Shown: positions 6,344 through 32,124, counted from the stretch's first letter. The stretch is 45,720 nucleotides of DNA from Gammaproteobacteria bacterium (GCA_011051755.1 DRKN01000057.1:1-45720), one strand, 5' to 3'. A program made the numbers and translations. Notes: generated from the letters alone by a model not told the origin.

Positions 6344-6357
6344 GGTTGCTTGCCCAC

Positions 6358-7572: not shown

Positions 7573-7584
7573 GCTTGACTCCCC

Positions 7585-8070
7585 TTAGCCGACGATACGC
7601 AGGCCGGTCTTTTTCAAAATACGTGTGCTGAACAGCACCTCGTGTCCACGATCTTTCGCCCCCAGTATGGCCGCGATGTGGCGGACTTTTTCATCGACTT
7701 CGGCGCGGTCACGACCATGCACCATGGCAAACAGGTTATAGGGCCAGGTCGGCGGATGGCGGGGACGGTGGTAGCAGTGACTGACAAAGTCGAGCGCGCC
7801 GATGGTTTGTCCGGCTTCCTTTATCGCGTCATCCGGGACATTCCACACGGACATGCCGTTGCCCTTGAATCCCAGGGCATAATGATTCGGTACCGCGCCG
7901 ATACGGCGGATGGCGCCGCTGTCGAGCATGCGCTGCATGCGGGTCATGACATCATTGGCATCGAGGCCCAGCTGTGCGGCGATTATTGCATAGGGGCGTG
8001 GCGTCAGTGGCAGCCCCCCCTGGGTGACGGCAATGATGCGCCGGTCGGTGGCGTCGATGACGGTATTCAT
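7585..8070 (-). CDS. nirH: Siroheme decarboxylase subunit, Lrp/AsnC-like (NirH-like)
   Basis: TQGGLPLTPRPYAIIAAQLG, ALGFKGNGMSVWNVPDD, CYHRPRHPPTWPYNLFAMVHG; cluster position. Confidence 0.8.
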   Translation of the reverse strand: MNTVIDATDRRIIAVTQGGLPLTPRPYAIIAAQLGLDANDVMTRMQRMLDSGAIRRIGAVPNHYALGFKGNGMSVWNVPDDAIKEAGQTIGALDFVSHCYHRPRHPPTWPYNLFAMVHGRDRAEVDEKVRHIAAILGAKDRGHEVLFSTRILKKTGLRIVG

Positions 8071-8510
8071 AGCTCGAAGCGCAGCCCCACAAAAAACTCC
8101 TCTATCTTCGGCACGTTATACACCCGGCAGCCCGTTTTTTGTTCAATCTCGGTGAGCACTTCGTCTATCCTTTCCGCTGTTTCCGTTGCCAGCACAAACC
8201 ACATGTTCAGGTGGTGTTCCCGTTGGTAGTTATGCGCTACCTCCGGGAAATGGTTGACTTGCTCCGCCACGCGGTCAAAGCCTTCATCGGGCACATGCAG
8301 TGCGGCCAGGGTCAGGCCACCGCCCAGGCGCTCGGCATGGTACATGGGGCCGAAGCGGCTAAGAAGACCTTCCGCGAGCAAATTTTCAAGCCGTTCAATG
8401 AGTTCCTTTTCCGTGATCTCCAGCGTTTTCGCCACCTCGGCGTAGGGTCGCTCGGTGATGGGGAATCCCCCCTGCAGCTGGTTGATGATGGTGGCATCCC
8501 GGGTATCCAT
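8067..8510 (-). CDS. nirG: Siroheme decarboxylase subunit, Lrp/AsnC-like (NirG-like)
   Basis: LQGGFPITERPYAEVAKTL, HNYQREHHLNMWFVLATE; ATG at 8510 overlaps the upstream stop. Confidence 0.78.
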   Translation of the reverse strand: MDTRDATIINQLQGGFPITERPYAEVAKTLEITEKELIERLENLLAEGLLSRFGPMYHAERLGGGLTLAALHVPDEGFDRVAEQVNHFPEVAHNYQREHHLNMWFVLATETAERIDEVLTEIEQKTGCRVYNVPKIEEFFVGLRFEL

Positions 8511-9046
8511 CAGGCTTGGCCTTCCGACGGGCTGTGCATTCTCGCCACGACCGGTTGATGGGGTGGCGCATCGATATAGTGGGCCCCGCACTGCTTGAAG
8601 CGCTGGCGGCTGAACAACACTTCATGTTGGATAGCTTTCAGGCCACAACGCTCGATCAGATGCTCGATGTTGTGTAACACGGCAGCACGGTTTTGTCCGT
8701 GGATCATGGAAAACAGGTTGTAGGGCCAGTCCGGCAGGTGGCGTGGCCGACGGTAACAAAGGGTAACGAAATTCACGCCGCCAATGCGTCGGCCGAGTTC
8801 GTCCACCTGATCATCGGGGATGTTCCATACGGTCATGGCGTTGGCGCGGTACCCCAGTTCGTGATGACGCACCACCACCCCCAGCCGTTTTATGGTGCCA
8901 TCGGCCAGTAGCGCCTGGATGCGTTCGATGGTTTCGTTTTCACTCAAACCGATACGGGCGCCAATCTCGGCAAAGGGGCGGGATACCAGTGGCAGGCCAC
9001 CCTGGATGGCGGCGACCAGCTGTTGATCCCGCGCCGTTAATCCCAT
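8510..9046 (-). CDS. nirL: Siroheme decarboxylase subunit, Lrp/AsnC-like (NirL-like)
   Basis: IQGGLPLVSRPFAEIGARIG, CYRRPRHLPDWPYNLFSMIHGQ. Confidence 0.78.
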   Translation of the reverse strand: MGLTARDQQLVAAIQGGLPLVSRPFAEIGARIGLSENETIERIQALLADGTIKRLGVVVRHHELGYRANAMTVWNIPDDQVDELGRRIGGVNFVTLCYRRPRHLPDWPYNLFSMIHGQNRAAVLHNIEHLIERCGLKAIQHEVLFSRQRFKQCGAHYIDAPPHQPVVARMHSPSEGQA

Positions 9047-9486
9047 TGCAATGGAAACCCCAGGTCGATGTGGTACTCGGCCTGCATGGGCAGGGGTAGT
9101 ATGGCAAGACCCGTTTGCTGTTCGATGTGTTGCAGTAAGGCTTGTAGATGTTCCTGGGTGTTTGCGGTGACGACGAACCAGAGATTGAGGCGGTGTTCGC
9201 GTTCATAGTTGTGATTGACCCCGGGAAAGGCGTTGACCAGTTCTGCCACCGCCTCCAGTCTGGCTTCTGGCACCGTCATGGCCACCAGAGAACTGACGCC
9301 GCAACGCTGGGGGCGGAAAACCGGCCCGACCCGGCTGACGACGCCGCGCTCCGTCAGGGTGCGCAGACCGCTGATGACCTCTTCTTCTGTTACGCCCAAT
9401 TCCCCCGCCATGTCCGCAAACGGTGTGGGGGAGGGGGGCAGGTTACGCTGAAAATCGTTCAGCAGGCGTTTTTCCAGTGTATTCAT
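9037..9486 (-). CDS. nirD: Siroheme decarboxylase subunit, Lrp/AsnC-like (NirD-like)
   Basis: FQRNLPPSPTPFADMAGELG, NHNYEREHRLNLWFVVTA. Confidence 0.78.
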   Translation of the reverse strand: MNTLEKRLLNDFQRNLPPSPTPFADMAGELGVTEEEVISGLRTLTERGVVSRVGPVFRPQRCGVSSLVAMTVPEARLEAVAELVNAFPGVNHNYEREHRLNLWFVVTANTQEHLQALLQHIEQQTGLAILPLPMQAEYHIDLGFPLQWD

Positions 9487-9489
9487 AGC

Positions 9490-10689
9490 TTACAGGCCGA
9501 TCTCGTGTGCGCGTGAGGTAAAGAAGATCCCGCTGGGCTTGTCCGCCGGCAGTGTCGTGACCTGGCGGAGTGTTTCCGTGTCATAGACCACGATGAGGTC
9601 ATCGTCGCGAACCGAAATCCATATCTGCTCACCGCGGGGAGTGAATTCCATGTGCAGCACCGCCGGGCCCGGTTTTAGTGTTTTGACAATGCGCTGGGTC
9701 GGTACATCGATCACCTGCACGGTATCGTTGTCGGGGAAGGCGAAATTGACCCAGATCTGGCGGCTGTCAGGGCGGGCCATGACAAATACCGGTTGTCCGT
9801 GCACGGCGATGCGGCCAACCTCCTGCCAGTTTTTTTGCTCGATCACCAATACCTCATGACGGCCGACGGCGGGCACGAACAATAAATCCCCCGCCGCTGC
9901 CCAACCTTCCAGGTGTGGCATTTTGTAGACCGGCAAGGCCTGCTCGCCACGCCCATAGCCCCCCAAAATACGTTTCACGCCGGCGTCCAGATTCCATAAA
10001 TCCAGCAGGGCAAGGCCGTCTTCGCCGAACAGGCCGGCAATGTAGTAGCGGCCATCCGGCGTAATGAGACCGTCATAGGGAAATTTGCCGATGTCTCTGA
10101 ATTTGCGGATTTGTGGGTTTTGGGGGTCGTGCATGCCGACCACCCAGGTCTCACCCGCATCCCACAGGCTGAAGACGAAACGTTGGCCGGGGGCATCCAC
10201 CAGCCCTACCACCTTGGAGCGTTCGCCGTCGTGGCCGTAGACGGCGGGGATGTCGGCGAGCATCGTCAGGGTTTCCGCGTCGAATATCTTTACGCCACCG
10301 GGCTTGTAATTGCTGACGGCGATCAGGCGGCCATCCTGGGAGATGGCGCCGCCGATGCTGTTGCCGCCTTGCACCACACGTTTGACCAGTCGGCCGCGCA
10401 GGATATCCACCTTGGACAGGCCGCCGTCACGGCCGAAGACATAGGCATAGCGCTCATCGCGGGAAAAAACCGCTGAGGCGTGGGATAGATTGCCCAGTCC
10501 CTCCACGCGCGCGAGTATGCTGTGATGGGTGGTTTCCACCACCAGGGCGTTGCCAGCGGCGCGTTCGATGATGATGCCCATATCCCCTGTGCCACGCAGG
10601 GTGGCGACGTCTAACTGGGAACAGCCGGCTATCAGCAGCGATGCCAGTATCAGGCCCGGGGTGAAGCGGAAACGTTCCTTATTGGCCAT
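9490..10689 (-). CDS. nirF: Heme d1 biosynthesis protein NirF
   Basis: Lipoprotein-like signal (LIAGCSQ), d1-type propeller with no heme c motif; between nirC and nirD. Confidence 0.87.
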   Translation of the reverse strand: MANKERFRFTPGLILASLLIAGCSQLDVATLRGTGDMGIIIERAAGNALVVETTHHSILARVEGLGNLSHASAVFSRDERYAYVFGRDGGLSKVDILRGRLVKRVVQGGNSIGGAISQDGRLIAVSNYKPGGVKIFDAETLTMLADIPAVYGHDGERSKVVGLVDAPGQRFVFSLWDAGETWVVGMHDPQNPQIRKFRDIGKFPYDGLITPDGRYYIAGLFGEDGLALLDLWNLDAGVKRILGGYGRGEQALPVYKMPHLEGWAAAGDLLFVPAVGRHEVLVIEQKNWQEVGRIAVHGQPVFVMARPDSRQIWVNFAFPDNDTVQVIDVPTQRIVKTLKPGPAVLHMEFTPRGEQIWISVRDDDLIVVYDTETLRQVTTLPADKPSGIFFTSRAHEIGL

Positions 10690-11038
10690 GAGGTATTCCT
10701 TGCAGCATGCGTTTCACCAACCATGTGACCTCGTCTTCGTTGAGGATGGGGCGCCAGGGAGGCATGGCCGTGTTGGGGATGCCGTCGAGTATGACATCGC
10801 GCAACCATTCAGGGGGCTTGCCGGACAGCTCGGCGGGCAATAGCGGCGGACCCAAGCCCCCCGCCAGCGTCAATCCATGACAGGAACCGCAATCCTGTTT
10901 GAGCAGGTGAATCAGCTCGCCCTGACGGCTGGGGGAAATCCCTTTTTCCTGGGCATGCAGTGGCGTGGGAGACAATGCCAGCAATAGTGCCAGCAACAGT
11001 GCCAGGAAAAGCGTGACGACAAAAAAAACAGCCTGCAT
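10679..11038 (-). CDS. nirC: Small c-type cytochrome NirC
   Basis: MQAVFFVVTLFLALLLALLLALSPTPLHA signal, CGSCH site, downstream Met region (NTAMPPW). Confidence 0.82.
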   Translation of the reverse strand: MQAVFFVVTLFLALLLALLLALSPTPLHAQEKGISPSRQGELIHLLKQDCGSCHGLTLAGGLGPPLLPAELSGKPPEWLRDVILDGIPNTAMPPWRPILNEDEVTWLVKRMLQGIPHGQ

Positions 11039-11048
11039 GGAAATCCTT

Positions 11049-11858
11049 TTATGATCCCGCACTGGCGCAGAGACTGCCTGCACCTCGGGTGAGTGAAAAA
11101 TTCGATCTGTCTGCTGCCAGACAACTCAATGCTTCGGCAAGAGTGACGACACGTCCAATAACTATCAGTGAGGGTGGTCGGAAGTCAAGTTCATGCGCCC
11201 GTTGTGTGATATCCGCCAGGGTGGTGATGCAGCGGCGCTGTTTGGGTTGGGTGCCATTTTCGATAATGGCTGCGGGTGTCGTTGCGGACAGGCCGGCAGC
11301 CATGAGTTTTTGGCTGATCTCGGACAGGTGTCCGAGTCCCATGTAGACCACCAGGGTGGTGTCGGGATCGGCCAGGCTGGCCCAGTTCAGGTCGAGTGGC
11401 TGATTGGCCTGACAGTGGCCGGTAACGATGCGTACCCCGGAGGACAGGCCGCGATGTGTAAGGGGGATGCCGGCGTAGGCACTGCAACCTGCGGCCGAAG
11501 TAATGCCGGGAATGATCTCAAAAGAAAAACCATGTTCATGTAAGTATTTTGCCTCTTCGCTGCCGCGGCCGAAAATGAAGGGGTCTCCGCCTTTCAGTCT
11601 TACGACCTGGCGTCCTTTGCGGGCCAGATTCACCAACAGGCGGTTAATCTCATCCTGGGTCATGTGGTGGCGCCCTGCGGCCTTACCGACATAGATGCGC
11701 TTGGCGCCAGTGGGGAGAAGTTCAAGAATGGCCGGGGAGACCAAACGATCATAGACGATAACATCCGCTTGGCGAAGAATCCGCTGTGCCTTGACCGTCA
11801 ATAACTCGGGATCGCCAGGGCCGGCTCCCACCAAGTAGACATCAGGTATTTTGTTCAT
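11049..11858 (-). CDS. nirE: Uroporphyrinogen-III C-methyltransferase (SUMT; NirE/CobA)
   Basis: VYLVGAGPGDPELLTVKAQRILRQADVIVYDRLV, VRLKGGDPFIFGRGSEE, GITSAAGCSAYAGIPLTHR. Confidence 0.93.
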   Translation of the reverse strand: MNKIPDVYLVGAGPGDPELLTVKAQRILRQADVIVYDRLVSPAILELLPTGAKRIYVGKAAGRHHMTQDEINRLLVNLARKGRQVVRLKGGDPFIFGRGSEEAKYLHEHGFSFEIIPGITSAAGCSAYAGIPLTHRGLSSGVRIVTGHCQANQPLDLNWASLADPDTTLVVYMGLGHLSEISQKLMAAGLSATTPAAIIENGTQPKQRRCITTLADITQRAHELDFRPPSLIVIGRVVTLAEALSCLAADRSNFSLTRGAGSLCASAGS

Positions 11859-12004: not shown

Positions 12005-13805
<1,801 letters not shown>

Positions 13806-13833: not shown

Positions 13834-15150
13834 TTACCCACTGTTTTCCTGGTGCGCCCTGACTTTTTTGTACATTCTCAATGCCGAGTAAATGTTTAAA
13901 AACAACAACAAGGATGAAAAAGCGAATAATATTGCCAGAGGATACAGAAACCATAGTGGTTTTAACGCGCTGCAGAGGAACAAAAGTAGTGATAATCCAT
14001 GCAGATAAAATTGCCGGAGAGCCCACCGTTCCAGGATGATTTCCTTCATGTTGGGCAATTTTATTCGCGCGTTGTTTTGGCCCTGCAAATGCAGCCAGAT
14101 GAGGAAAGGAACAATTTTGTACAACATGCCATTGACTACCGATACGACAAAACCGGCGATGAACAGGATGCCGAGCAAATAGCCGAATCGATGCCAGTTC
14201 GTCAATGCCGGCCACAGTTGCCCGGCCATCCAGAGGAGTGTGCATGCCAGAAGACTGTACATGGCAAGGTGCCAAAATCGTAATGTTACGTCCTTGATGT
14301 GTCGCCGCCGGTGTCTTTGCAGGTAAAGGGTGGTGCCGGCAAACAGGGCGAGGCCGACGGCGAGTGCCGAGGACAGGGCGCCCATCAGCAATGTCTGTGT
14401 CACGGGCCCGACAATGGGCAGCAGAGATATGCCGGCCCACGACACCAGTCCTGCCAGTATCAGTTTCGTCAGCCAGCGTTGCATCCATTGCGGATAACGG
14501 GGGGTCATTTGAAACATGGGCACAACCTCATAGGCAACGCCGATAACCAGAACACCCATCCAGCCGATGAGACCCCAGGCCAAATGGACATCGGTCCATG
14601 ACTTTGACAGGCCGGTGTCGAAAGACCCGATGTGTTCGGCAGCGAGCCTCAGACCAAGGGCAACGGCAACCACGAGTGAGCCGACCGCCAGCCACATACC
14701 ACTGACGGTCGAATTGTGCGCCTTTGCCTGCGCCAGGGAAAAGATGTTGATGGCGATGAACAGCAAAAAGCCGGCGCCTAGAAAAAACACGGAAAGCTGT
14801 ATTGCCGGGTTATTGTTCAGCAACAGACCGCCGGCCAGAACCAGGGCTCCCAGGGTCAGCAGAATATGGATGAGGGTACTGACCAGAAGGGGACGTGGTA
14901 TGGGGGAGCCCGTCAGCACCGGCAGCATTTGTGATATGGCTCCCACCATCACCAGAGAGATATAACCCAGGGCGATGAGGTGTGTTGCCGCGAGTGTCGC
15001 TGGTGTCCAGCGACTCAACAGAGTGTCCGGCCCATAGCTTATGAAAATGATCGCCGTCAGAATACCGAACAATGGCGCGGTGAGAAAAAAGCGCAAGGGC
15101 ACGGAAAGTGGTGGGGCTTGGGCCAGGGAGAGTCCGGATCGTATTGTCAT
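13834..15150 (-). CDS. Polytopic membrane protein resembling heme-copper subunit I/NnrS-like proteins; unknown function
   Basis: About 12 predicted TM segments with intramembrane His (ATHLIALGYISLVMVGAISQMLPVL, VHLAWGLIGWMGVLVIGVAYEVVPMF, WHRFGYLLGILFIAGFVVSVVNGMLYKIVPFLIWLHL). ATG at 15150 (MTIRSG). Confidence 0.6.
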   Translation of the reverse strand: MTIRSGLSLAQAPPLSVPLRFFLTAPLFGILTAIIFISYGPDTLLSRWTPATLAATHLIALGYISLVMVGAISQMLPVLTGSPIPRPLLVSTLIHILLTLGALVLAGGLLLNNNPAIQLSVFFLGAGFLLFIAINIFSLAQAKAHNSTVSGMWLAVGSLVVAVALGLRLAAEHIGSFDTGLSKSWTDVHLAWGLIGWMGVLVIGVAYEVVPMFQMTPRYPQWMQRWLTKLILAGLVSWAGISLLPIVGPVTQTLLMGALSSALAVGLALFAGTTLYLQRHRRRHIKDVTLRFWHLAMYSLLACTLLWMAGQLWPALTNWHRFGYLLGILFIAGFVVSVVNGMLYKIVPFLIWLHLQGQNNARIKLPNMKEIILERWALRQFYLHGLSLLLFLCSALKPLWFLYPLAILFAFSSLLLFLNIYSALRMYKKVRAHQENSG

Positions 15151-15751
15151 CTTGGTTGTATTGTTGTTAGAGGGTTGTTGTCCATAGCTGACTGTAAGAT
15201 GTGTTCTCCTGACTTTTTTAACACAAATTGTGTGAGTTTTATTATTTCCCCGACAAAAAACAAAGGCTTGTTGTCGTCTGTTTTTACCGATACGTTCTTG
15301 TCTCGATACAGGCGGCCTAAAAGCGTTTAAAAAAAGCGCGGATGCTTGGAAGTCTTGGCGATTTTTTACCACATATCAGTTCCCCCGGAGTTGATCAGGG
15401 GTTATTGCGGTGAATAATGACGGAGATCCCGTGAAGCAGGCTGGACAAGTATGGCCAAAAAAGGGAGCCGTTAGCGGCCAGATTTGCTGCCTTGCAATCC
15501 TCTCCTTGATCGCAAAAGTGCCAGCCATGTAGTCTGTGGTGAGATCAGGAGGCCGTAGAAGCTATGTTGCCCGACTAAAAACCCCTGGATAGCGACTCAC
15601 CCGGCCTACCCTCTTTTTCGTCAAATAGAGGGACTATTCTCTTCAAGTGATAAGCTTATTTAGTTCGCTATCAATTATATGCGGCGAAAACGATTAAGCC
15701 CGGTCGTTTTCCAGGATCCATCATACCATTGGCAGGTCATTGGACTGCGTG

Positions 15752-18837: not shown

Positions 18838-19212
18838 TTATTGCAATCCATTCATAAAGTCCATCATCTCGTCAAGTTTCTCACCTTTCAGCTTCATGGA
18901 GGGCATGGTGGTTTTTGCCTTGGGGTCTCCGGTCAATTCCTTGATTGCCTTTTTACCGTCGCCGAGCCACAGACGCATGTTTGCATCATCCCATATCCAG
19001 TCGGCGTTTTTCAGGCTCTTGCTGTACTTGCTGAAGCTGGTTGAACCGGCTTTATTCCCCATGAGATTTTTCAGGCCGGGGCCGACCTTGTTCGCTGTAC
19101 CAAAATCATGACATGCCTTGCACTTGGCCTCAATGCCAGCGCTGACGTTCATGCTTAGAAAGGCGCTGGCGGTAATGATGGTGGCGGCCGCTGTTTTGAT
19201 CATCGTATTCAT
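18838..19212 (-). CDS. Class I monoheme cytochrome c
   Basis: Signal peptide, CKACHDFG, KVGPGLKNLMGNKAG, TTMPSM axial Met. Confidence 0.9.
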   Translation of the reverse strand: MNTMIKTAAATIITASAFLSMNVSAGIEAKCKACHDFGTANKVGPGLKNLMGNKAGSTSFSKYSKSLKNADWIWDDANMRLWLGDGKKAIKELTGDPKAKTTMPSMKLKGEKLDEMMDFMNGLQ

Positions 19213-19278: not shown

Positions 19279-19292
19279 TTGATATACGTCAA
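19279..19292. promoter_or_regulatory. FNR/DNR-like box TTGATATACGTCAA
   Basis: One mismatch to TTGAT-N4-ATCAA, ~70 bp upstream of the cytochrome c gene. Confidence 0.65.
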
Positions 19293-19711: not shown

Positions 19712-19725
19712 TTGATATAAATCAA
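19712..19725. promoter_or_regulatory. Perfect FNR/DNR box TTGATATAAATCAA
   Basis: Exact TTGAT-N4-ATCAA, ~62 bp upstream of the ba3-like operon. Confidence 0.85.
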
Positions 19726-19786: not shown

Positions 19787-19951
19787 ATGCCAGATACCGA
19801 GAAAGCCAACGAAGAACCAGAACGCATCTCGCCAATGCAATCGGTTTTGGATAATCCCTTTTTGCTGCTTTTTATCGGCGTGGTTGTACCAACGGTTTTT
19901 TATCTCATATGGGGCATTATGGAACTGCTTTCCATCCCGGTAGCCCAATAA
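19787..19951 (+). CDS. Small single-TM subunit (IIa-like) of a ba3-type heme-copper enzyme
   Basis: ATG 19787 after AGGAGGAG; one TM (NPFLLLFIGVVVPTVFYLIWGIMELL) immediately upstream of subunit II. Confidence 0.7.
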   Translation: MPDTEKANEEPERISPMQSVLDNPFLLLFIGVVVPTVFYLIWGIMELLSIPVAQ

Positions 19952-19982: not shown

Positions 19983-20531
19983 ATGTCTACCCATAACACC
20001 CTGACCCCTCCACCGAACGACTGGTGGCGACATCCTATCGGGCGAGATGAGGTTCTATGGATCAGTATTGCCGCTGCTTGGTGTGTGATCATGACGTTTA
20101 TGATGGTCTACTGGTATTTTGCCGGCAATCAGAATCAGGCGGGAGAGGCCTACCGCATCAGCCCGGAGGCCTTTGCGGCGAAGGCCGATGAAATGGTGGA
20201 CAAATACACCATTCGGACGGAAACGGAGCTTGAGGTGCCGGTGGTGGCGGTGCCGCCGGGGGGCGACGTCTATATCGTCTCCAGCCAGTATCAGTGGAAC
20301 GTGATACCGGAATTGAAGCTGGGTGAGACGTACCGGTTCCATCTGTCGTCGGTGGATGTGAATCACGGCTTTTCATTGCAACCGATCAATGTGAATCTTC
20401 AGCTTGTCCCGGGTTACGACTACGTGTTGAATTTCACGCCAAATGCCGTCGGTGAATACAATATGGTCTGTAATGAATATTGTGGCCTTGCTCACCATGT
20501 GATGGTTGGCAGACTCTACGTTGTCGAATAG
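19983..20531 (+). CDS. Heme-copper oxidase subunit II with CuA site
   Basis: N-terminal TM; CuA motif VCNEYCGLAHHVM, DVNHGFSLQP. Confidence 0.9.
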   Translation: MSTHNTLTPPPNDWWRHPIGRDEVLWISIAAAWCVIMTFMMVYWYFAGNQNQAGEAYRISPEAFAAKADEMVDKYTIRTETELEVPVVAVPPGGDVYIVSSQYQWNVIPELKLGETYRFHLSSVDVNHGFSLQPINVNLQLVPGYDYVLNFTPNAVGEYNMVCNEYCGLAHHVMVGRLYVVE

Positions 20532-20545
20532 GGGAGGAGCAAATA

Positions 20546-22237
20546 ATGTCTAATGATTCTGAATTCCGTACCTGCCCGGACACGGGGCTGCGTATTCACT
20601 TGCCGGCCGAGAAGCTGATGAAGGCGAATGCCGTCGCGGCGGTTGTCTTCCTGTTGATTGGTGGTCTTTTTGGCCTGGCCGTGGCGCTGACACGCTGGCC
20701 GGCCGTGCATCTGCTGCCTGCGGAGTGGTTTTATATCGCCCTGACGGCGCATGGTACCGATATCCTGGTGGTATGGATCATCTTCTTCGAGATGGCGGTT
20801 CTGTACTTCACTTCCACGGTATTGCTCAACAGCCGTATGGCGACACCCAAGGTGGGCTGGGTCGCCTTTGCGCTCATGTTGGGGGGGGCCGTGATGGCAA
20901 ACGTGGTGATCCTCGACGGTTCATCCACGGTGATGTTCACCTCTTACCCGCCACTTAAGGCCAATCCACTGTTCTATCTGGGCTTGATTCTGTTCGCGGT
21001 GGGGGCGCTATTGGTGTGCTTTATTTTTCTTGGCACACTGGTCATTGCCAAGCAAGAGAAGACCTACGAGGGGTCTCTGCCACTGGTTGTCTTCGGTGCG
21101 CTGATAGCGGCGATCATCGCTATCTTCACCATTGCCAGTGGTGCGATCATCCTGATTCCCACGCTGCTCTGGTCACTGGGCCTGGTGGGTAATATCGATC
21201 CGCAGATGTATCGTCTGGTGTGGTGGGCCTTTGGCCATTCCTCGCAGCAGATCAACATGGCGGCGCAGATTGCCATCTGGTACGGCATCGCTGCCCTGTT
21301 GTTCGGCGCCAAGCCCTTGTCCGAGAAGGTCAGTCGCATGGCGTTTTTCCTCTACCTGCTCGCCTTGCAGCTCGGCTCTGCGCATCACCTGTTGTCCGAC
21401 CCCGGCGGTAGCATGTCGTTCCGGGTGTTCAACACCAGCTATGCCATGTACATCGCCGTACTGGGCAGCATGATCCATGCCTTCACCATACCCGGCTCGA
21501 TTGAAGCGGCGCAACGGGAGAAGGGCTTGAACAATGGTCTGTTCGAATGGCTACGCAAGGCGCCGTGGGGCAATCCGGTGTTTTCCGGCATGTTCCTGTC
21601 ACTGGTGTTGTTCGGGTTCATTGGTGGCATCACCGGCGTCACCATGAGTGTGCAGCAAATCAACATGATCATTCACAATACGACCTATGTGCCCGGCCAT
21701 TTCCACGGCACGGTTGCGGCGGGTACAACGTTGGCATTCATGGCCCTGACCTATTGGCTGTTGCCTGTCCTGTGGCGCCGGGACGTATTCATGCCCAAGG
21801 TGGCGCAGTGGTCCACCTGGATGTTTGGTCTGGGTATGGGTGGATTCGCCATCTTCTTCATGGCGGCGGGACACCTTGGTGTGGCGCGACGACACTGGGA
21901 TATGACCTTCGCGGGTAATCCTCTGGGCTTTGAGTATTCTGCCACTGTGTATCTGTTCATGGGTGCTTCGGGTATCACCGCGGTTATCGGTTCCCTCGGT
22001 GCTTTGGCCTATATTCTCTGCACCGTAGGGACGATATTGATTGGTAAACGCAGGCCTGATGATGCCGCACCGGCGGTTTCTCCCGAAGGTGTCGAGGCGA
22101 TCACAAGCTACGGAAATCGTGGCAAAGGTTGGGAAGCCCCGGGCTCTCTGGTGCTGGTTGCCGTGTTTATGGTGTTCCTGGTTGTCTACTACTTTGCCAA
22201 CTGGAAGTACTTGGGGAGCGTCTGGGGAATCAGATAG
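20546..22237 (+). CDS. B-type (ba3-like) heme-copper oxidoreductase subunit I; oxygen reductase or NO reductase unresolved
   Basis: FGHSSQQIN (helix VI), SAHHLLSDPG (helix VII HH), VPGHFHGTVAAGTTLAFMALTYWLLP (helix X); ATG 20546 after GGGGAGGAG. Confidence 0.88.
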   Translation: MSNDSEFRTCPDTGLRIHLPAEKLMKANAVAAVVFLLIGGLFGLAVALTRWPAVHLLPAEWFYIALTAHGTDILVVWIIFFEMAVLYFTSTVLLNSRMATPKVGWVAFALMLGGAVMANVVILDGSSTVMFTSYPPLKANPLFYLGLILFAVGALLVCFIFLGTLVIAKQEKTYEGSLPLVVFGALIAAIIAIFTIASGAIILIPTLLWSLGLVGNIDPQMYRLVWWAFGHSSQQINMAAQIAIWYGIAALLFGAKPLSEKVSRMAFFLYLLALQLGSAHHLLSDPGGSMSFRVFNTSYAMYIAVLGSMIHAFTIPGSIEAAQREKGLNNGLFEWLRKAPWGNPVFSGMFLSLVLFGFIGGITGVTMSVQQINMIIHNTTYVPGHFHGTVAAGTTLAFMALTYWLLPVLWRRDVFMPKVAQWSTWMFGLGMGGFAIFFMAAGHLGVARRHWDMTFAGNPLGFEYSATVYLFMGASGITAVIGSLGALAYILCTVGTILIGKRRPDDAAPAVSPEGVEAITSYGNRGKGWEAPGSLVLVAVFMVFLVVYYFANWKYLGSVWGIR

Positions 22238-22554: not shown

Positions 22555-23448
22555 GTGCGGCATCCATCATGGCTAAAAATGACTACTTTCCTGGTGGCTT
22601 TTCTATGTACCCATAGTGTTGTGCATGGCCAGGAAGCCCCTGCCTCGGCGGCGAGTTCCTCTGCTGCAGGCAATCAAGCAGAAAACACTGATGATACTGC
22701 ATTATCCCGTCATATCGATGATCAGGCGGCGTTGGCGTTCAGCCAGGCTGCGATAGGCCGTCCGCTGAATGATTACAGTCTGCTGGATCGTGAAGGAAAA
22801 CCGGTCAAGTTTACCGATTATCGTGGCAAACCACTGCTCATCAGCATGATATATTCCAGTTGTTTCCATACCTGCCCGGTGATTACCCAATACCTCGCGC
22901 GTGCGGTAAAACTGGCGCGCAGTGCGGTGGGTGAAGACGGTTTCAATGTTGTCAGTATCGGTTTTGATGCCCGTTATGACCGGCCGGACTCGATGAAAAC
23001 ATTTGCCCGTCAGCGAGGTGTATCCGATGACCCCTATTGGAAATTTCTTAGCGCAACGGATGCGACGGTCATCCAGCAATTGTCTGATAATCTCGGCTTT
23101 ATCTTTACGAAAACACATACCGGATTCGACCATCTCGCACAGATCACGGTGATCGATGGTGAAGGAAAGATATACCGGCAGATATACGGGGAAAATTTCA
23201 ATCCTCCCGTGCTGGTGGAAACATTAAAGGAAATTGTTTTTGGCAATTCGGTGTCTTCGGAAATAAGTTTCGCCAGCTTTGTCAATAAGGCGCGCTTGTG
23301 GTGTACGATCTATGATCCAAACAGTAATACCTATCGCTTCGATTATTCGATGGTCGCTGGCCTTGGGGTCACGTTTATCATCCTTGCCATTTTCATATAC
23401 ATTATCGTCCGCATGTGGATCAGGGTCTTGTCCAGGAGTAGCGCCTGA
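22555..23448 (+). CDS. SCO1/SenC family protein with C-terminal TM
   Basis: MIYSSCFHTCPVITQYL (CxxxCP), signal peptide; GTG start. Confidence 0.85.
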   Translation: MRHPSWLKMTTFLVAFLCTHSVVHGQEAPASAASSSAAGNQAENTDDTALSRHIDDQAALAFSQAAIGRPLNDYSLLDREGKPVKFTDYRGKPLLISMIYSSCFHTCPVITQYLARAVKLARSAVGEDGFNVVSIGFDARYDRPDSMKTFARQRGVSDDPYWKFLSATDATVIQQLSDNLGFIFTKTHTGFDHLAQITVIDGEGKIYRQIYGENFNPPVLVETLKEIVFGNSVSSEISFASFVNKARLWCTIYDPNSNTYRFDYSMVAGLGVTFIILAIFIYIIVRMWIRVLSRSSA

Positions 23449-23560: not shown

Positions 23561-25183
23561 ATGGCCGTTTTGATAAAGTTGCAAAGGGCGGGATTACGCC
23601 TGTTTCAGAGCCTGGAGCGATTGCTTGGTCATGTCTTTCGTGAGTTCAATAATCCCTTCTATAGTTTGGGAGCTTTGGCGTTCTACTTTTTTTATATTAT
23701 TGTCGGCAGCGGTATTTATTTATTTATATTTTATGAGCCCTCGATCAAGGGCAGTTTTGATACGGTCGACTATTTGACGCATGAGCAATGGTATTTTGGC
23801 GGCATAATGCGCAGCCTCCACCGTTATGCCTCGGATGCCCTGGTATTGGTCATGGTCTTGCATATCTTGCGCGAGTTCACCCTGGATCGTTACCGGGGCG
23901 CCCGTTGGTTTACCTGGGTGACCGGCTTTCCGGCGTTGTTGTTGATTTTTTCCAGCGGTTTGATTGGCTATTGGCTGGTGTGGGACACACTGGGACAGTA
24001 CATTGCCGTGCGATCAACCGAGTGGCTGGATTGGCTGCCAATATTTTCTGAACCGTCGGCACGAAATTTTTTGACGAATTCAAGCGTTTCCGACCTGTTT
24101 TTTCGGCTTATCCTCATTGGCCATATTGCGATTTCCATCTTCCTCTTCGTTGCCTTGCTGGTGCATGTGAAAAATATCAGCAAGGCCATTACCAGTCCGC
24201 CGCGGAATCTTGCCGTTGGAACCTTTCTGTGCCTGCTGATCCTATCATTGGCGTTGCCGGCGGTCAGTCAGGAGCGCGCGGACTTAAGCCAGGTGCCTGG
24301 TATCATCCATATTGATTGGTTCTATATGTTCGCCTATCCCTTGATGGATCACTGGTCAATGGGGGGTGTATGGGCGTTGGTGGCGGTGATAACGCTATTG
24401 TTACTGTTCTTGCCCTGGTTGCCTCCGCAGCGTCATCGGCCTGTGGCGAAGGTATTGCTGGAAAAATGCAGTGGCTGTAGCCTGTGTGTCATGGATTGTC
24501 CCTATGAGGCCATCATCCTGCAACCACGTACTGATGGTCACCCCAGCTATGTGCGTGAAGCGGCAGTGGTTGCGGATAACTGCGTCGGCTGTGGCATTTG
24601 TACCGGCGCCTGTCCGTTCTCCCGGCCGCCGCGGGGGGAGGAGTTGTTGACAACAGGGATTGATGTGCCCTCGCGGGACATTCAACACCTCTACCGTGCA
24701 AGCGCTCTGGCATTGGAGGCCTTACGTTCAAACACCAAAGTGCTGGTCTATGGCTGTGATCACGGCGTTGCTTTGGATAGCTTGGCTATCGAGGACGTCG
24801 CGGTGGTCAGTTTGCCGTGTACGGCGGCGCTGCCAGCCTCGTTCATTGGCTATATGTTACGCCATGGGGCCGATGGCATTTTTCTGACGGGTTGTCGTAG
24901 GGGGGACTGCTACCATCGGCTGGGCAATATCTGGGTAGAGCAGCGTTTGAGCCTCGATCATCAGTCCCGGCCTCATTTACCCCGCTGGATTCCCCGGCAA
25001 CGTATTGGTTATTACTGGGCAGGGTTGGATGACGAAAGGCCGTTGATAAGGGCGATTGATCGCTTTCAGAAAGGGCTGCATGACTTTTCAGCAGCCAACA
25101 ATGGCCAGCACGAAGAGGATTCCCTTCCTGACCCTGTGTCGATTCAAGGTACCCGCAAACAGGTTTCCAGCGAAAAACATTGA
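23561..25183 (+). CDS. Cytochrome b :: 2x[4Fe-4S] ferredoxin :: MvhD-like fusion (copy 1)
   Basis: Cyt b helices with bis-His pairs 14 apart (SLHRYASDALVLVMVLHILREF; GHIAISIFLFVALLVHV); CSGCSLCVMDCP and CVGCGICTGACP; MvhD-like VLVYGCDHG...SLPCTAALP...LTGCRRGDCYHRLGN. Confidence 0.9.
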   Translation: MAVLIKLQRAGLRLFQSLERLLGHVFREFNNPFYSLGALAFYFFYIIVGSGIYLFIFYEPSIKGSFDTVDYLTHEQWYFGGIMRSLHRYASDALVLVMVLHILREFTLDRYRGARWFTWVTGFPALLLIFSSGLIGYWLVWDTLGQYIAVRSTEWLDWLPIFSEPSARNFLTNSSVSDLFFRLILIGHIAISIFLFVALLVHVKNISKAITSPPRNLAVGTFLCLLILSLALPAVSQERADLSQVPGIIHIDWFYMFAYPLMDHWSMGGVWALVAVITLLLLFLPWLPPQRHRPVAKVLLEKCSGCSLCVMDCPYEAIILQPRTDGHPSYVREAAVVADNCVGCGICTGACPFSRPPRGEELLTTGIDVPSRDIQHLYRASALALEALRSNTKVLVYGCDHGVALDSLAIEDVAVVSLPCTAALPASFIGYMLRHGADGIFLTGCRRGDCYHRLGNIWVEQRLSLDHQSRPHLPRWIPRQRIGYYWAGLDDERPLIRAIDRFQKGLHDFSAANNGQHEEDSLPDPVSIQGTRKQVSSEKH

Positions 25184-25193
25184 TCTAGGTCAT
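25180..25193. promoter_or_regulatory. Weak FNR/DNR-like site TTGATCTAGGTCAT
   Basis: Two mismatches to the consensus; ~75 bp upstream of cyt b fusion copy 2. Confidence 0.35.
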
Positions 25194-25267
25194 GCTAAGT
25201 CAAGCGATAAATTAGTTAATCTTGATCGTGCCAATGGGGATTTCCCCGGACTCGGGAGTGATACGAC

Positions 25268-26857
25268 TTGCTTAAACTATTTCAGGATACCGGGCACCGG
25301 GCATTCTTGTTTGCTGATCGTTTGGCAAATGCCATTTTTGGCTCGCAGTGGAATCCTTTATATCACCTGGGCACGATGGCCTTCTTCTTCTTCTACATCG
25401 TGCTTGCCAGCGGCATCTATATCTATATCTTCTACGACACGAGCGTTGTGGATGCGTATACCTCCGTTGAATACATGACACATGAACAATGGTATCTGGC
25501 GGGTGTTATGCGCAGCCTGCACCGTTACGCATCGGATGCGATGGTTGCCACCATGGTTCTGCACTTGCTGCGCGGCTTTTTTTTCGACCGTTATCGCGGT
25601 GCGCGCTGGTTTTCCTGGACAACCGGCATTCCAATGTTGGTGATGGTTTTCGCCATCGGTATTACCGGTTATTGGCTGGTGTGGGATCAGCTGGGGCAGT
25701 TCGTTGCCGTTCGCACCTCTGAATGGATTGACTGGCTGCCCATTATCGCCGAGCCCACGGCGCGCAATTTTCTGACCAACACCAGTGTCACGGATCTCTT
25801 TTTCAGACTCCTGGTGGTGATCCACGTGGCCCTGCCGCTGATGTTGCTAGGCTTAATGCTCCTGCATGTCACCCGGCTCAACGATGCCAAGATCAACCCG
25901 CCGGCCGGTTTGGCGGTAGGAGCCACTGTGGCGTTAGTGGTGCTGTCGCTGGTCAAACCGGCCGTCAGCCATGAGGCGGCAGATTTGGGCACGCTGCCCA
26001 CCCAATTGAATCTAGACTGGTTTTATCTGTTTATTTATCCGCTGATGGATCTGTGGTCGATGGGTGCCGTGTGGGCGTTGGTCGGTGGCGGTCTACTGTT
26101 GCTGGCACTCATACCCTGGCTGCCGCCAAAGCGCCGTGAACCCGTGGCCGTGGTTTATGCCGATGATTGCAGTGGTTGTAATCTGTGTGTTGAGGACTGC
26201 CCCTATGAGGCCATCATGCTGGAAGCGCGCACAGCGACGACAAGCGCAGGCCGCTATCAGCACCTGCCGATTGCCGTGGTTGAAGAAAGCAAGTGTGTCA
26301 GTTGCGGTATTTGTACCGGCTCCTGTCCATCTTCCACACCGTTTCGTCAAACCGATGCGGTGCAGACCGGGATCGATATGCCGCACAGGAATATTCAGGA
26401 TCTGCATGCCGCCACCCGCGAGGCGCTCGCCAACCTGACAGGACAGACCAAGGTACTGGTTTATGGATGCGACCATGGCGTCGAGATGAGCAAAGTGGTA
26501 CAGGCAGGGGTTGCCATGATCAGCTTGCCCTGCACTGGCGCATTGCCGCCGTCGTTCATCGTTTATGCCTTGCGGCAGGGTGCTGACGGTGTTTTTCTAA
26601 CCGGCTGCCGCAGTGGTGATTGCTTTCATCGTATCGGCAATGACTGGGTGGATCAGCGTATTACCCATCATCGCAAGCCTTATCTTAAGCGCTCGGTTCC
26701 TCACCAACGGGTCAGGCGATACTGGGCTGCGACCTCGGATCACAAACAACTGGTCAACGAAATCGAATCCTTTTGTCAAGCATTACGGGATATTTCTCCT
26801 GCGGCTGCAACGACTGAGGCACAAGATGTATTGCCGGGCAATGAGACGCGGGGATAA
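25268..26857 (+). CDS. Cytochrome b :: 2x[4Fe-4S] ferredoxin :: MvhD-like fusion (copy 2)
   Basis: Same architecture: SLHRYASDAMVATMVLHLLRGF; IHVALPLMLLGLMLLHV; CSGCNLCVEDCP, CVSCGICTGSCP; VLVYGCDHG...SLPCTGALP...LTGCRSGDCFHRIGN. TTG start. Confidence 0.9.
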   Translation: MLKLFQDTGHRAFLFADRLANAIFGSQWNPLYHLGTMAFFFFYIVLASGIYIYIFYDTSVVDAYTSVEYMTHEQWYLAGVMRSLHRYASDAMVATMVLHLLRGFFFDRYRGARWFSWTTGIPMLVMVFAIGITGYWLVWDQLGQFVAVRTSEWIDWLPIIAEPTARNFLTNTSVTDLFFRLLVVIHVALPLMLLGLMLLHVTRLNDAKINPPAGLAVGATVALVVLSLVKPAVSHEAADLGTLPTQLNLDWFYLFIYPLMDLWSMGAVWALVGGGLLLLALIPWLPPKRREPVAVVYADDCSGCNLCVEDCPYEAIMLEARTATTSAGRYQHLPIAVVEESKCVSCGICTGSCPSSTPFRQTDAVQTGIDMPHRNIQDLHAATREALANLTGQTKVLVYGCDHGVEMSKVVQAGVAMISLPCTGALPPSFIVYALRQGADGVFLTGCRSGDCFHRIGNDWVDQRITHHRKPYLKRSVPHQRVRRYWAATSDHKQLVNEIESFCQALRDISPAAATTEAQDVLPGNETRG

Positions 26858-26861
26858 GGCG

Positions 26862-27362
26862 ATGCAGATATTCCAATATCTTGGACAGGCATTCTGGTAC
26901 CTTCTTTTTATCGCCTTCATCGGCTATTTTTCAATGTCTCCCGCCTATACTTTTATGGCGCCAGATCAGGCATTGATTAAGCTTGCCTTTAATCATTCCG
27001 GGAAGTTAAAGCTGCCGTGCCGGGAGTTTACGGCGGAAGAGCAGGCTGCAAAGCCGAAACACATGCGTATAGCGTTCGATTGCCCAAGGGAACGTTCCCC
27101 CGTCTATGTGATTATGAAAATTGATGGAAAGCTTATTTTTGAAAAAACCATTAACCCAGCGGGTTTTGCAAAGGACTTGTCTTCGCCCTTATATGAGCGG
27201 ATTGCACTAAAGGCTGGCCAATACCACTTATCTCTCGGTATGCGGGATCATGTCGATACCGAAGGTCTTGACTATGAGTTCGAAGGTTCTATTACATTGG
27301 CGGCCTCGCAAATTCTGGTGGTTGGCTTCGATTCTGAGCATAATGAGTTTACATTCCAGTAA
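26862..27362 (+). CDS. Small membrane-anchored protein, unknown function
   Basis: N-terminal TM (FWYLLFIAFIGYF) then ~130 aa soluble domain; ATG 26862 four bases after the copy 2 stop. Confidence 0.7.
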   Translation: MQIFQYLGQAFWYLLFIAFIGYFSMSPAYTFMAPDQALIKLAFNHSGKLKLPCREFTAEEQAAKPKHMRIAFDCPRERSPVYVIMKIDGKLIFEKTINPAGFAKDLSSPLYERIALKAGQYHLSLGMRDHVDTEGLDYEFEGSITLAASQILVVGFDSEHNEFTFQ

Positions 27363-27522
27363 ATTATCGGCGGGATTCATGTGGCAGTTAAGTAGCAGGT
27401 GCTATAAGGGACAAACCGGAACAACGATATTGAAGAAGGGTTCGTTGACACTATAATCACGGCCCTATAACCACGGTGTTGTTGTACGTACAAAAGATGA
27501 CGTTAGCTTACGAGGGCTATTG

Positions 27523-28887
27523 ATGAGCAAAAATTATTCCTATGTATTGCCAGAGCCTGATGAAGAATCACGCCGACTTTCCGCAGGTTGGCTGATATTG
27601 GGCATTTCGGCGCTGGTAGCCGCGGGCTTGCTCGCGATTCTTCTTGTTATGGCGCGAACGCCCTATATCAAAGATATTTTCCCCTGGAATAATTTTTTCA
27701 AGACCGCGATGGTTGTTCACGTCGATCTTTCCGTGTTGATGTGGTTCTTACCCTGTGCCGGCATGATCTGGAGCTATAATTCCACCCGCCGGCATCTCAA
27801 AACGGGGTGGGTGGCGCTGTGCCTGGCGTCTCTCGGTACGGCCATCGTTGCGGTGTCGCCATTTCTGGGTTCTGGCGAGCCCTTGATGAATAATTACTTT
27901 CCCGTCATTGACAGTCCTGTGTTTCTCACCGGGATGGTTTTGTTCGGGATCGGTTTTACGCTGTTGGTCATGCGCAGCTTGAGCCTTGGTTGTTCGCCGA
28001 TCGGACCATTGAAGGATGGGACTGCGGGACTGCGCATTGGTATATACACGGCCTCGATTTCCTCGATTGCTGCCGTGGGCACATTGGTTTGGGCTTATCT
28101 GTTGATCCCTGATTCCGTTCAGGGTTGGGAATATTATGAGGTTCTGTTCTGGGGCTCCGGTCATGTATTGCAGTTTACTCATACCCTGTTGATGATCGTG
28201 GCCTGGTTGTGGCTGGCCAGTGTCAGTGGTGTGCGTATCACGCTGTCTCCACGCCTGACGAGTCTGATTTTTGCTCTTGGTGTTGTGACGATCCTCATTA
28301 CACCTTATATTTACCTGAGTATCGATATCATGTCGGTTGAGTCAGCGGTCTGGTTTACCCGCCTGATGACCGCTGGTGGTGGCTTGGCTGCGCTACCTTT
28401 TGGCCTGGTCGTAATCGTTGGGCTGTACTTGGCCAGCCCTCCCTCTGCACAAGACCGGGTTCTCCGGGTGACGCTTTTTTATTCACTCCTTTTATTCGGT
28501 GTCGGTGGTGTTCTTGGTTTTATGATACGGGAAAGCAGTACCCTGATTACGGCCCATTACCATGGGTCAAATGGGGCGATTACCGTGGCCTTTATGGGGC
28601 TGGTCTATTTTTTATTGCCCAAGATCGGTTTTGATAAAGTACAAATGCGTTTGGCCAGAATCCAGCTTCACGCCTTTGGGCTGGGTCAGCTTCTGCATGT
28701 TTTGGGACTAGCCTGGGCTGGAGGCTACGGCATGCGGCGTAAGATCGCTGGAGATGGACAGAGCCTGGATAATTTCCAGCAAACCGCTGGCATGGCGATT
28801 ATGGGGATGGGCGGCTTGATTGCCGTCATCGGTGGTGTCTTGTTCCTGTATCTCGTGGTGCGTGCCATGTGGCCACGCAAGAAGTAG
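27523..28887 (+). CDS. Divergent heme-copper oxidase subunit I-like (cbb3/Nor-like annotation likely) protein
   Basis: Helix II VVHVDLSVLMWFL, helix VI GSGHVLQFTHTLL, helix X TAHYHGSNGAITVAFMGLVYFLLPKI; helix VII HH pair not found. Confidence 0.8.
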   Translation: MSKNYSYVLPEPDEESRRLSAGWLILGISALVAAGLLAILLVMARTPYIKDIFPWNNFFKTAMVVHVDLSVLMWFLPCAGMIWSYNSTRRHLKTGWVALCLASLGTAIVAVSPFLGSGEPLMNNYFPVIDSPVFLTGMVLFGIGFTLLVMRSLSLGCSPIGPLKDGTAGLRIGIYTASISSIAAVGTLVWAYLLIPDSVQGWEYYEVLFWGSGHVLQFTHTLLMIVAWLWLASVSGVRITLSPRLTSLIFALGVVTILITPYIYLSIDIMSVESAVWFTRLMTAGGGLAALPFGLVVIVGLYLASPPSAQDRVLRVTLFYSLLLFGVGGVLGFMIRESSTLITAHYHGSNGAITVAFMGLVYFLLPKIGFDKVQMRLARIQLHAFGLGQLLHVLGLAWAGGYGMRRKIAGDGQSLDNFQQTAGMAIMGMGGLIAVIGGVLFLYLVVRAMWPRKK

Positions 28888-29272
28888 ACGGCTTGTATGA
28901 TTGGGTTTTATGGGTGGTGTTGAAAAAAATCGTCAAAATTGTGGTATAAATTGTGGTATTACAAAGAGTTGCTCCAGGGGTGTGGCGAGTTCCTTGGCTT
29001 TGCCGGGTAGCTGCGATAAAGGGGCCAATAGGCGCAGGGTTTTTGGGCGTGTAACAAATAAGGGAAATTGCTTATTTTATAATATCAATTTATCGGGTAG
29101 GGTGGTGCGGAGTGTGTGGGACACCGTGTTTGACGTGTTCAGTTTCCACGCAAAAAAATGCCGGGCTGATATTTTCTCTCATGTTCGGAGAATGATTCGT
29201 GTGCATTGTCAATACTGTTTTTATTGAGTGGCCGTCATTGTTTCACACAGAAGTGAAAAGCGGGTTTCTTGC

Positions 29273-29962
29273 ATGAAAAATTCCTCCATTTTGGCGAATA
29301 TCCCCTTGTTCAAGGAACTGGATTCCAGTCAGCTTGCAAAAATTTCATCCGCCACCCATGAGATCACCGTCAATAAAGGGCGCATCCTGTTTAATAAAGG
29401 CGACCCTTCTGATGGCTTTTATGTTGTTGTCTCCGGTCGTATAAAGCTCTCATTTGTATCGAGGGACGGGAAAGAGTTTATTGCCGAAATTTTTGGGCCG
29501 AACCAGAGCTTTGGAGAGGCGGTCATGTTCCTGGGCAAGGCATATCCTGTGTGTGCCCAGGCATTGATGGATTCGAAGATCCTGCATGTGCCAAAGAGCG
29601 TTGTGTTTGATGGCGTCGATCATAACTCGGGATTTGCCCGTCGGGTGATAGCCGGACTCTGTGCCCGGCTGGTGGACAGAATCCAAACGCTGGAATATCT
29701 GACGGTGTATTCCAGTATCCAGAAGGTCATCGGCTATTTGTTACGGGAAATAGAATTGGCCGAGTCGGCAAAAAATACGACAAATAACGAAGCTGACGTG
29801 CTCCTTGCCGTTAACAAAGCCACACTTGCCGCGCAGTTGAATCTTACTCCGGAAACACTTTCCCGGGTTTTGCATAGACTGGTGGATGAAGGCTTGATTC
29901 GCGTTGAAGGAAAGACCATTCATATCTGCCATGTGCAGAAAATGCGTGATTTCAGTGGTTAG
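29273..29962 (+). CDS. Crp/Fnr family regulator (Dnr-like, lacks FNR-type N-terminal Cys cluster)
   Basis: cNMP-binding fold (NKGDPSDGFYVVVSGRIKLSF, FGPNQSFGEAVMF) plus HTH LAAQLNLTPETLSRVLHRLVDEGLI. Confidence 0.9.
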   Translation: MKNSSILANIPLFKELDSSQLAKISSATHEITVNKGRILFNKGDPSDGFYVVVSGRIKLSFVSRDGKEFIAEIFGPNQSFGEAVMFLGKAYPVCAQALMDSKILHVPKSVVFDGVDHNSGFARRVIAGLCARLVDRIQTLEYLTVYSSIQKVIGYLLREIELAESAKNTTNNEADVLLAVNKATLAAQLNLTPETLSRVLHRLVDEGLIRVEGKTIHICHVQKMRDFSG

Positions 29963-31109: not shown

Positions 31110-32124
31110 ATGTCTAATCGTCCCTCTTCCTTATTTTCCAAGCTCGTCACCGTATCTTTCGTCCTGTCATTTGCGTTGATTGTCTTGAGTTCCCAGATGC
31201 GCTTGTCGAATCAGGGACTGGGGTGTGACGACTGGCCCGATTGCTATGGCCGTATCGATATCGTCAAGTATGCCGGAGATATTGCCGCCACGGCTTCACG
31301 CAGCCTGCAACCGGGGACGCTGGCGCCACCGACAGCGGTGGAGCGGGCGCACCGGGGGGGTTGCCAGTGTTTTACTGATGTTCATCGTGGCGCTTGTGAT
31401 CGTCGCCTGGCGCCAGCGCAAGGACTCGGGGCCGGGCATGACCCTGCCACTTGGGGCCCTGGCCGTCACCCTGTTTCTGGCCGTGCTGGGCGTGTTGTAC
31501 GGATCACCGCTCCTCAGGCCGCCCGTGGTGATGGCCAACCTGCTGGGTGGCATGGCCCTGCTTGGGATGCTTTGGTGGCTGTATCTGTCCCAGCACCCGG
31601 GGTCGACAGCGGATACTTCACCGGGGGCGGAAAGGTTACGAAAATGGGCGTTGCTCGGGTTGGCGCTGGTGGTCGCGCAAACGGCACTCGGCGGCTGGGT
31701 GAGTTCGAATTTTTCAGCCCTGGCCTGCCCGACATTTCCTCTCTGCAAGGGCGTGCTGTGGCCGGAGATGGATATTCCCGCTGGCTTTACGCTGCGCCAC
31801 CTGTTGGTTGTCAGCCCTGAAGGGCGGGTCGTTGTCGAGCTGGCGGCGACACTGGCTGTCCATATGGTGCATCGCCTGGGCGCCGTTCTCGTTTTGCTGT
31901 TTGTGGCTTGGCTGGGCTATCGGGCGCTAAAGCTGGGTGGCCGTACCCGGAGCCTGGGCATGGTTGTTTTTGTGCTCCTGGGTTTGCAGGTTCTGTTGGG
32001 CATGGCGGTGGTTGTTTTCAGTGCCCCCCTTGGCGTTGTCGTCACGCATAACGCCACGGCTGCGTTGCTATGGCTGACGCTTCTCGCACTCATCCACCGT
32101 CTTCCGCAAAGCCGGCGCCATTAA
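31110..32124 (+). pseudogene. Second COX15/CtaA-like heme A synthase, frameshifted in a G7 run
   Basis: Frame 1 MSNRPSS...LSNQGLGCDDWPDCYGR...AVERAHR continues in another frame as GVASVLLMFIVALVI...THNATAALLWLTLLALIH; one G too many at 31354-31360. Confidence 0.8.

Follow-up and report, generated by a model that had tools for sequence, protein, structure and literature searches.

Genetic organization of the locus

The tandem genes CB1 (23561-25183, + strand) and CB2 (25268-26857, +) are found in a 45,720-nucleotide stretch of gammaproteobacterial DNA (GCA_011051755.1, DRKN01000057.1), referred to here as the window, and encode paralogous proteins of 540 and 529 amino acids, respectively, sharing 54% identity. 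CB1 comprises a six-transmembrane (TM) cytochrome b followed by two [4Fe-4S] motifs (about 24455-24625) and an MvhD/FlpD domain (about 24737-25081), and the corresponding cytoplasmic modules of CB2 are encoded at about 26156-26338 and 26450-26791. Both genes belong to a cassette in which a small TM peptide, a CuA subunit, a B-family heme-copper subunit I, an SCO protein, CB and a protein designated X follow each other, often with an oxidase-like pseudo-subunit thereafter. The original prediction addressed CB1 and CB2 and omitted the Gln-type eNOR of the same cassette, subunit X and the surrounding denitrification island.

In the window, the cassette starts with an unannotated open reading frame (ORF) of 54 amino acids encoding a single-TM peptide (19787-19951, +), and a similar ORF is present 5' of the CuA subunit gene in nearly all loci. 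This peptide is probably a small IIa-like eNOR subunit, and its ORF may escape gene callers. The putative eNOR subunit II (19983-20531, +) consists of one TM segment and a cupredoxin domain with a complete CuA motif, as assessed from the Pfam COX2 match and alignment of the ligands. The gene for subunit I (20546-22237, +) starts at ATG 20546 with a ribosome-binding site, and is followed by one encoding an SCO1/SenC copper chaperone with a C-terminal TM segment (22555-23448, +), whose position between eNOR and CB is conserved. Downstream of CB2 are the genes for X (26862-27362, +), for the conserved pseudo-subunit (27520-28887, +), a B-family relative that has kept four of the six metal His and lost the HH of TM VII, and for a Crp/FNR-family regulator (29228-29962, +) that recurs near CB loci. 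The gene at 27520 was considered as a second catalytic NO reductase and discarded, as two of the three CuB His are absent. Heme A/O synthases are also encoded in the window, and a second, divergent heme A synthase (CtaA/COX15) paralogue lies near the cassette (31225-32124).

Domain architecture and fold of CB1 and CB2

The modular composition of the two proteins was examined using Pfam and NCBIfam models, profile searches against solved structures, and alignment of the metal ligands in 63 homologues, which together bore out the predicted fusion, in adjacent paralogues, of a bis-heme cytochrome b to a pair of [4Fe-4S] motifs and an MvhD-like domain. Cytochrome_B (E 1.5e-18 for CB1 and 1.6e-23 for CB2), FlpD (E 3e-12 and 2.6e-20, respectively) and Fer4 all scored above the Pfam gathering thresholds in both proteins. 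A profile built from 39 homologues aligned residues 19-218 with cytochrome b6 (6rqf, 8e-37), residues 297-377 with the C-terminal ferredoxin domain of HdrA (5odc_A) and residues 383-499 with MvhD (5odc_D, 8e-16), the latter being recovered at 5e-12 when the FlpD part was used by itself; the MvhD-like assignment was thus upheld in profile searches. The match to this domain architecture is far beyond chance.

The heme His pairs 85/99 and 186/200, predicted from their bc1-like 14-residue spacing, are kept in 63/63 homologues, as are the eight ferredoxin Cys, and the FlpD Cys 401, 422, 447 and 452 are present in 63, 63, 62 and 61 of the 63 sequences, respectively. The MvhD Cys set of CB consists of these four residues; the first Cys group, which is tight in canonical MvhD, appears to be reduced to a single Cys in CB. 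An AlphaFold model of CB2 (pLDDT 87.7, pTM 0.87) resembles the bc1 cytochrome b fold across about 285 residues, with helices A-D holding the four heme His and followed by helices E and F. As judged from this model, from a hydropathy scan, which alone missed helix B and was read together with the model, and by analogy with cytochrome b, the chain past helix F is predicted to enter the cytoplasm, where the two [4Fe-4S] motifs precede the FlpD domain. On the periplasmic side, an xDWFY motif occupies the place of PEWY in bc complexes, with D250 and W251 found in 62/63 homologues, and W139-D140 is kept in all 63. Conservation of DW in this motif is suggestive of a quinone site, which would also fit quinol, rather than NAD(P)H, as the donor.

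CB has features of two known systems. With cytochrome bc1/b6f it shares a bis-heme core of four helices, in which the His are spaced by 14 residues, helices E-F and probably a dimeric state, whereas it differs in having neither Rieske protein nor cytochrome c1/f, in the cytoplasmic Fe-S/MvhD arm placed after helix F and in the presence of subunit X; the periplasmic xDWFY motif resembles PEWY in part but is altered from it. As originally predicted, no Rieske or c1 gene was found among the cassette genes; those seen in the genome belong to an ordinary Rieske-cytochrome b-c1 operon on another contig. A Rieske motif was likewise found in none of the CB homologues searched, and the single CxxCH strings of two other proteins, located in the Fe-S region or, in one case, outside it, are not conserved. 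With HdrABC-MvhAGD (5odc) it shares the ferredoxin and MvhD modules in the order in which they are fused in HdrA2, the C-terminal part of which is also matched by CB in NCBIfam, below the equivalog cut-off. However, these modules are mounted on b hemes and not on the HdrA FAD domain, and in a denitrifier; no hydrogenase, HdrBC, HdrA FAD domain or MvhAG was found among the annotated genes of the window.

Besides cytochrome b6, the named NCBIfam models nearest to the cytochrome b half are ExtP/ExtQ of a selenite/tellurite reduction operon, although the matches to cytochrome b6 and ExtP fall below the equivalog cut-offs, far below in the case of the Ext models, and the latter do not include the Fe-S arm. 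The same list of domains is found in RME88945.1 (cytochrome b6, DMSOR-beta-like and FlpD), which is given in Table A3 of PMC8756737 only as a domain match, an ORF with a cytochrome c-like C1 domain; such a fusion was thus seen in passing, whereas no complex or function was proposed there. The original prediction recognized no named complex of this composition, and none was found in the papers searched.

The heme-copper enzyme and its denitrification context

Subunit I of the window, a B-family heme-copper protein related closely to ba3, has all six metal His, and a Gln (GHSSQQIN) stands where the cross-linked Tyr would be. A Gln at this position is the mark that defines eNOR (PMC8756737), an enzyme with which Gallionellaceae have been credited (PMC10734462); the CuA-containing subunit II is a further feature shared with eNOR. 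The window enzyme differs from other eNORs in that its clade is connected with CB and X, both of which are missing from the sister Gln clade. The gene order subunit II - subunit I - SenC had first suggested sNOR, an assignment abandoned on account of the residue itself, which is Asn in sNOR and Gln here. On this basis the enzyme is considered an eNOR-type NO reductase, with NO as its putative substrate. In three Myxococcota bins (L025:4857-6293, L033:5036-6478 and L059:770-2206), a further heme-copper subunit I, which has Asn instead of the Tyr and comes with its own CuA subunit, is encoded directly upstream of the Gln enzyme, giving two NO-reductase-like enzymes in tandem. In loci L036, L038 and L039 and in other Aquificota, Nitrospirota and Bacteroidota loci, HFH of subunit I is changed to HFK, the low-spin heme His apparently being replaced by Lys.

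The genes around the cassette include nirS, encoding cytochrome cd1 nitrite reductase (12005-13786, - strand), a source of NO, and a set of heme d1/nir genes (4769-11858, -) for a second c-d1 protein, NirJ, three NirDL-like proteins, a NirF-like protein and a tetrapyrrole methylase. An FNR/DNR-type box without mismatch, TTGATATAAATCAA (19712-19725, +), lies upstream of the eNOR-CB cassette, and further exact FNR-type boxes are found just 5' of nirS (13792-13805) and before a hemerythrin gene (16535); by our own estimate, far fewer than one exact box would be expected by chance in 45.7 kb. A gene for a small soluble cytochrome c (18838-19212, -), a candidate alternative donor to CuA, has a one-mismatch box at 19279. 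Adjoining nirS is a gene for a membrane protein without Pfam match (13834-15372, -), NnrS- or oxidase-like by eye, and the window edge carries a probable multiheme cytochrome gene (44344-45666, -). In the host genome, which is about 90% complete, matches to the COX1 family are limited to cbb3, the Gln enzyme and the pseudo-subunit; no other NO reductase was found via this family, and the Gln enzyme is therefore probably the only NO reductase of the host.

B-family relatives such as ba3 reduce O2, and an oxidase function has been argued for sNOR, a similar enzyme (PMC6967387), so that the Gln enzyme might instead be a high-affinity oxygen reductase and the cassette an oxygen-respiring branch. 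This is regarded as very improbable, since all CB-linked subunit I sequences examined have Gln instead of the cross-linked Tyr and the enzyme lies beside nirS, with shared FNR-type boxes, in a nirS genome with no other detected NO reductase.

Distribution of CB and co-occurrence with eNOR

A scan of 85,462 species genomes yielded 62 CB loci, most of them from metagenome bins, in Pseudomonadota, Mariprofundaceae, Nitrospirota, Nitrospinota, Myxococcota, Aquificota, Bacteroidota and others; some hosts belong to lithoautotrophic groups (Gallionellaceae, Mariprofundaceae). Among 369 gammaproteobacterial genomes, CB was detected in 35 and a Gln-type subunit I in 34, with both in 33 (Fisher p 1.5e-43, a value that ignores relatedness, the carriers being spread over many families). 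The one other sampled member of the genus of the window had neither CB nor eNOR. Where the two were on one contig, 26 of the 28 pairs lay within 3.1 kb of each other, and in each of 20 further gammaproteobacterial regions CB is followed by X, the overall gene order eNOR-SCO-CB-X(-pseudo-subunit) being kept apart from minor variation and contig breaks. A survey of the gene neighborhood, proposed with the original prediction, thus placed CB in a conserved cassette with eNOR, SCO and X. No further universal partner was found in the wider neighborhood, where genes of the UbiA type (heme O synthase) and those for cytochromes c and cd1 are found repeatedly.

A strong subunit I match was obtained in 19/23 genomes behind other CB loci, and in Bacteroidota and other phyla the Gln enzyme is also present in most CB genomes. 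A few CB genomes, some of them incomplete, had no detected eNOR (G215, G233, G379, G381 and G388). In 396 Bacteroidota genomes, CB was found beside Gln enzymes of the CB-linked clade wherever the subunit I gene was readable, a clade with moderate support (84/73) in a subunit I tree with long branches. The Gln enzymes of the sister clade in this survey have no CB alongside, indicating that CB is not needed for catalysis.

It is conceivable that CB is an ordinary quinone-linked module through which electrons from NAD(P)H or ferredoxin enter the quinone pool, with eNOR being fed by cytochrome c from bc1 and the genes sharing regulation and transfer only. The host encodes a canonical bc1, cbb3 and the adjacent small soluble cytochrome c, so that CuA could be fed via cytochrome c, which counts against a dedicated supply, and eNOR exists without CB. 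However, the near one-to-one co-occurrence and the fixed order with X and eNOR across phyla exceed what shared regulation would need, and this explanation is considered unlikely. The pairing of CB with eNOR across phyla instead points to an electron-supply complex for making N2O.

Putative cytoplasmic partner and dimerization, and subunit X

No NAD(P)H module was found near the cassette within the window. In relatives, three kinds of such module are attached: a NuoF-like gene lies directly beside the CBX genes in eight loci, and between two CBX copies in the complete ones; Nitrosomonadales, among others, have a second cytochrome b paralogue with a fused Fer2-FAD-NAD module of the BenC/MmoC type, partly read by eye; and a flavodoxin-FAD-NAD (diflavin reductase) module is fused to another cytochrome b paralogue. 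By analogy with these relatives, NAD(P)H is most likely the redox partner of the cytoplasmic arm of CB, and their modules are also the reason for proposing that electrons would run from NAD(P)H. Near an eNOR cassette, L151:3672-6212 (-) encodes a fusion of cytochrome b with an entire diflavin (CysJ/P450-reductase-like) module, in a NOX-like layout. The proposal that the b hemes exchange electrons with a cytoplasmic Fe-S partner holds in so far as CB connects its membrane hemes with an Fe-S arm on the cytoplasmic side, but it missed the NO reductase as partner.

The coupling akin to bifurcation or confurcation suggested at the same time gained no supporting evidence here, the NAD(P)H modules of relatives favoring entry of electrons from NAD(P)H. 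In its fullest form, CB would be a bifurcating quinol dehydrogenase passing one electron to CuA of eNOR and the other via the b hemes and Fe-S arm to NAD+ or ferredoxin, so that NO would drive reverse electron transport. The Qo-like motif, in part preserved (D250-W251), in a protein without Rieske partner, the NAD(P)-binding partners to which the Fe-S arm leads in relatives and the lithoautotrophic affiliation of several hosts are in keeping with this scheme. Textbook potentials are +90 mV for ubiquinone (UQ), about +250 mV for CuA and -75 mV for menaquinol. With UQ, the electron of the semiquinone would have a potential near -70 mV, insufficient to reduce NAD+, and only menaquinol would reach about -400 mV, a rough estimate with CuA at +250 mV. 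Furthermore, diflavin-reductase and BenC-type modules normally run NAD(P)H outward, and the system also occurs in Bacteroidota that are probably heterotrophs, making bifurcation improbable.

The suggestion that two copies form a heterodimer gained weight from the CB tree, which contains at least three independent tandem duplications: the window lineage shares one with Mariprofundaceae, another took place in the NuoF-type loci, and the Nitrosomonadales pair arose from a third, the other CB lineages having one copy. The repeated retention of adjacent pairs fits a putative dimer able to become a heterodimer.

Subunit X (166 amino acids) is predicted to consist of an N-terminal TM segment and a periplasmic beta-sandwich, for which no close solved relative was found in structure comparison. 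Only R78, P99 and D105 are invariant. A role as substitute Rieske protein or cupredoxin was dismissed, as there is no conserved Cys or His. Given the predicted structure and the absence of any conserved metal ligand, a docking role is more likely for X than one in carrying electrons. Nitrospirota, Aquificota, Bacteroidota and some Myxococcota have proteins in which X is fused to CB at the C-terminus, its TM segment carrying it to the periplasm, whereas X is encoded by a separate gene in Pseudomonadota and other Myxococcota.

Proposed function and significance

Taken together, it is suggested, with rather more confidence than doubt, that CB1, CB2 and X constitute a membrane complex supplying electrons to the adjacent eNOR-type NO reductase. 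In this we infer that the three proteins associate, that electrons run towards the reductase, that NO is its substrate and that the host has a partner flavoprotein. CB1 and CB2 would form a bc-type cytochrome b dimer without Rieske protein or cytochrome c1, the MvhD/FlpD domain of which may dock an NAD(P)H-linked flavoprotein on the cytoplasmic side. Electrons would then pass from the FlpD [2Fe-2S] cluster through the two [4Fe-4S] clusters to heme bH and on to heme bL towards the periplasmic side, from where they could reach either a quinone in a reworked Qo pocket, with xDWFY for PEWY, or CuA of subunit II directly. In the last step, they would move from CuA or quinone to the eNOR site and to NO, with X acting as a periplasmic docking subunit where the Rieske head would sit. 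More tentatively, and on balance doubtful, the cassette may represent a new class of energy-transducing complex, in which a Rieske-free cytochrome b dimer is physically joined to a heme-copper NO reductase and either splits quinol electrons between NO and an HdrA/MvhD-type Fe-S arm reducing NAD+ or ferredoxin, so that NO would drive reverse electron transport, or carries electrons from NAD(P)H directly to NO without bc1.

NO reduction makes N2O. Surveys that name genes singly, as cytochrome b, hydrogenase iron-sulfur subunit or cytochrome c oxidase, would overlook both the complex and the NO reductase. The cassette would give one eNOR clade a dedicated electron supply. It also shows a bc-type cytochrome b that is re-used without Rieske protein and connected to methanogen-type Fe-S modules across Pseudomonadota (with Mariprofundaceae), Nitrospirota, Nitrospinota, Myxococcota, Aquificota and Bacteroidota.
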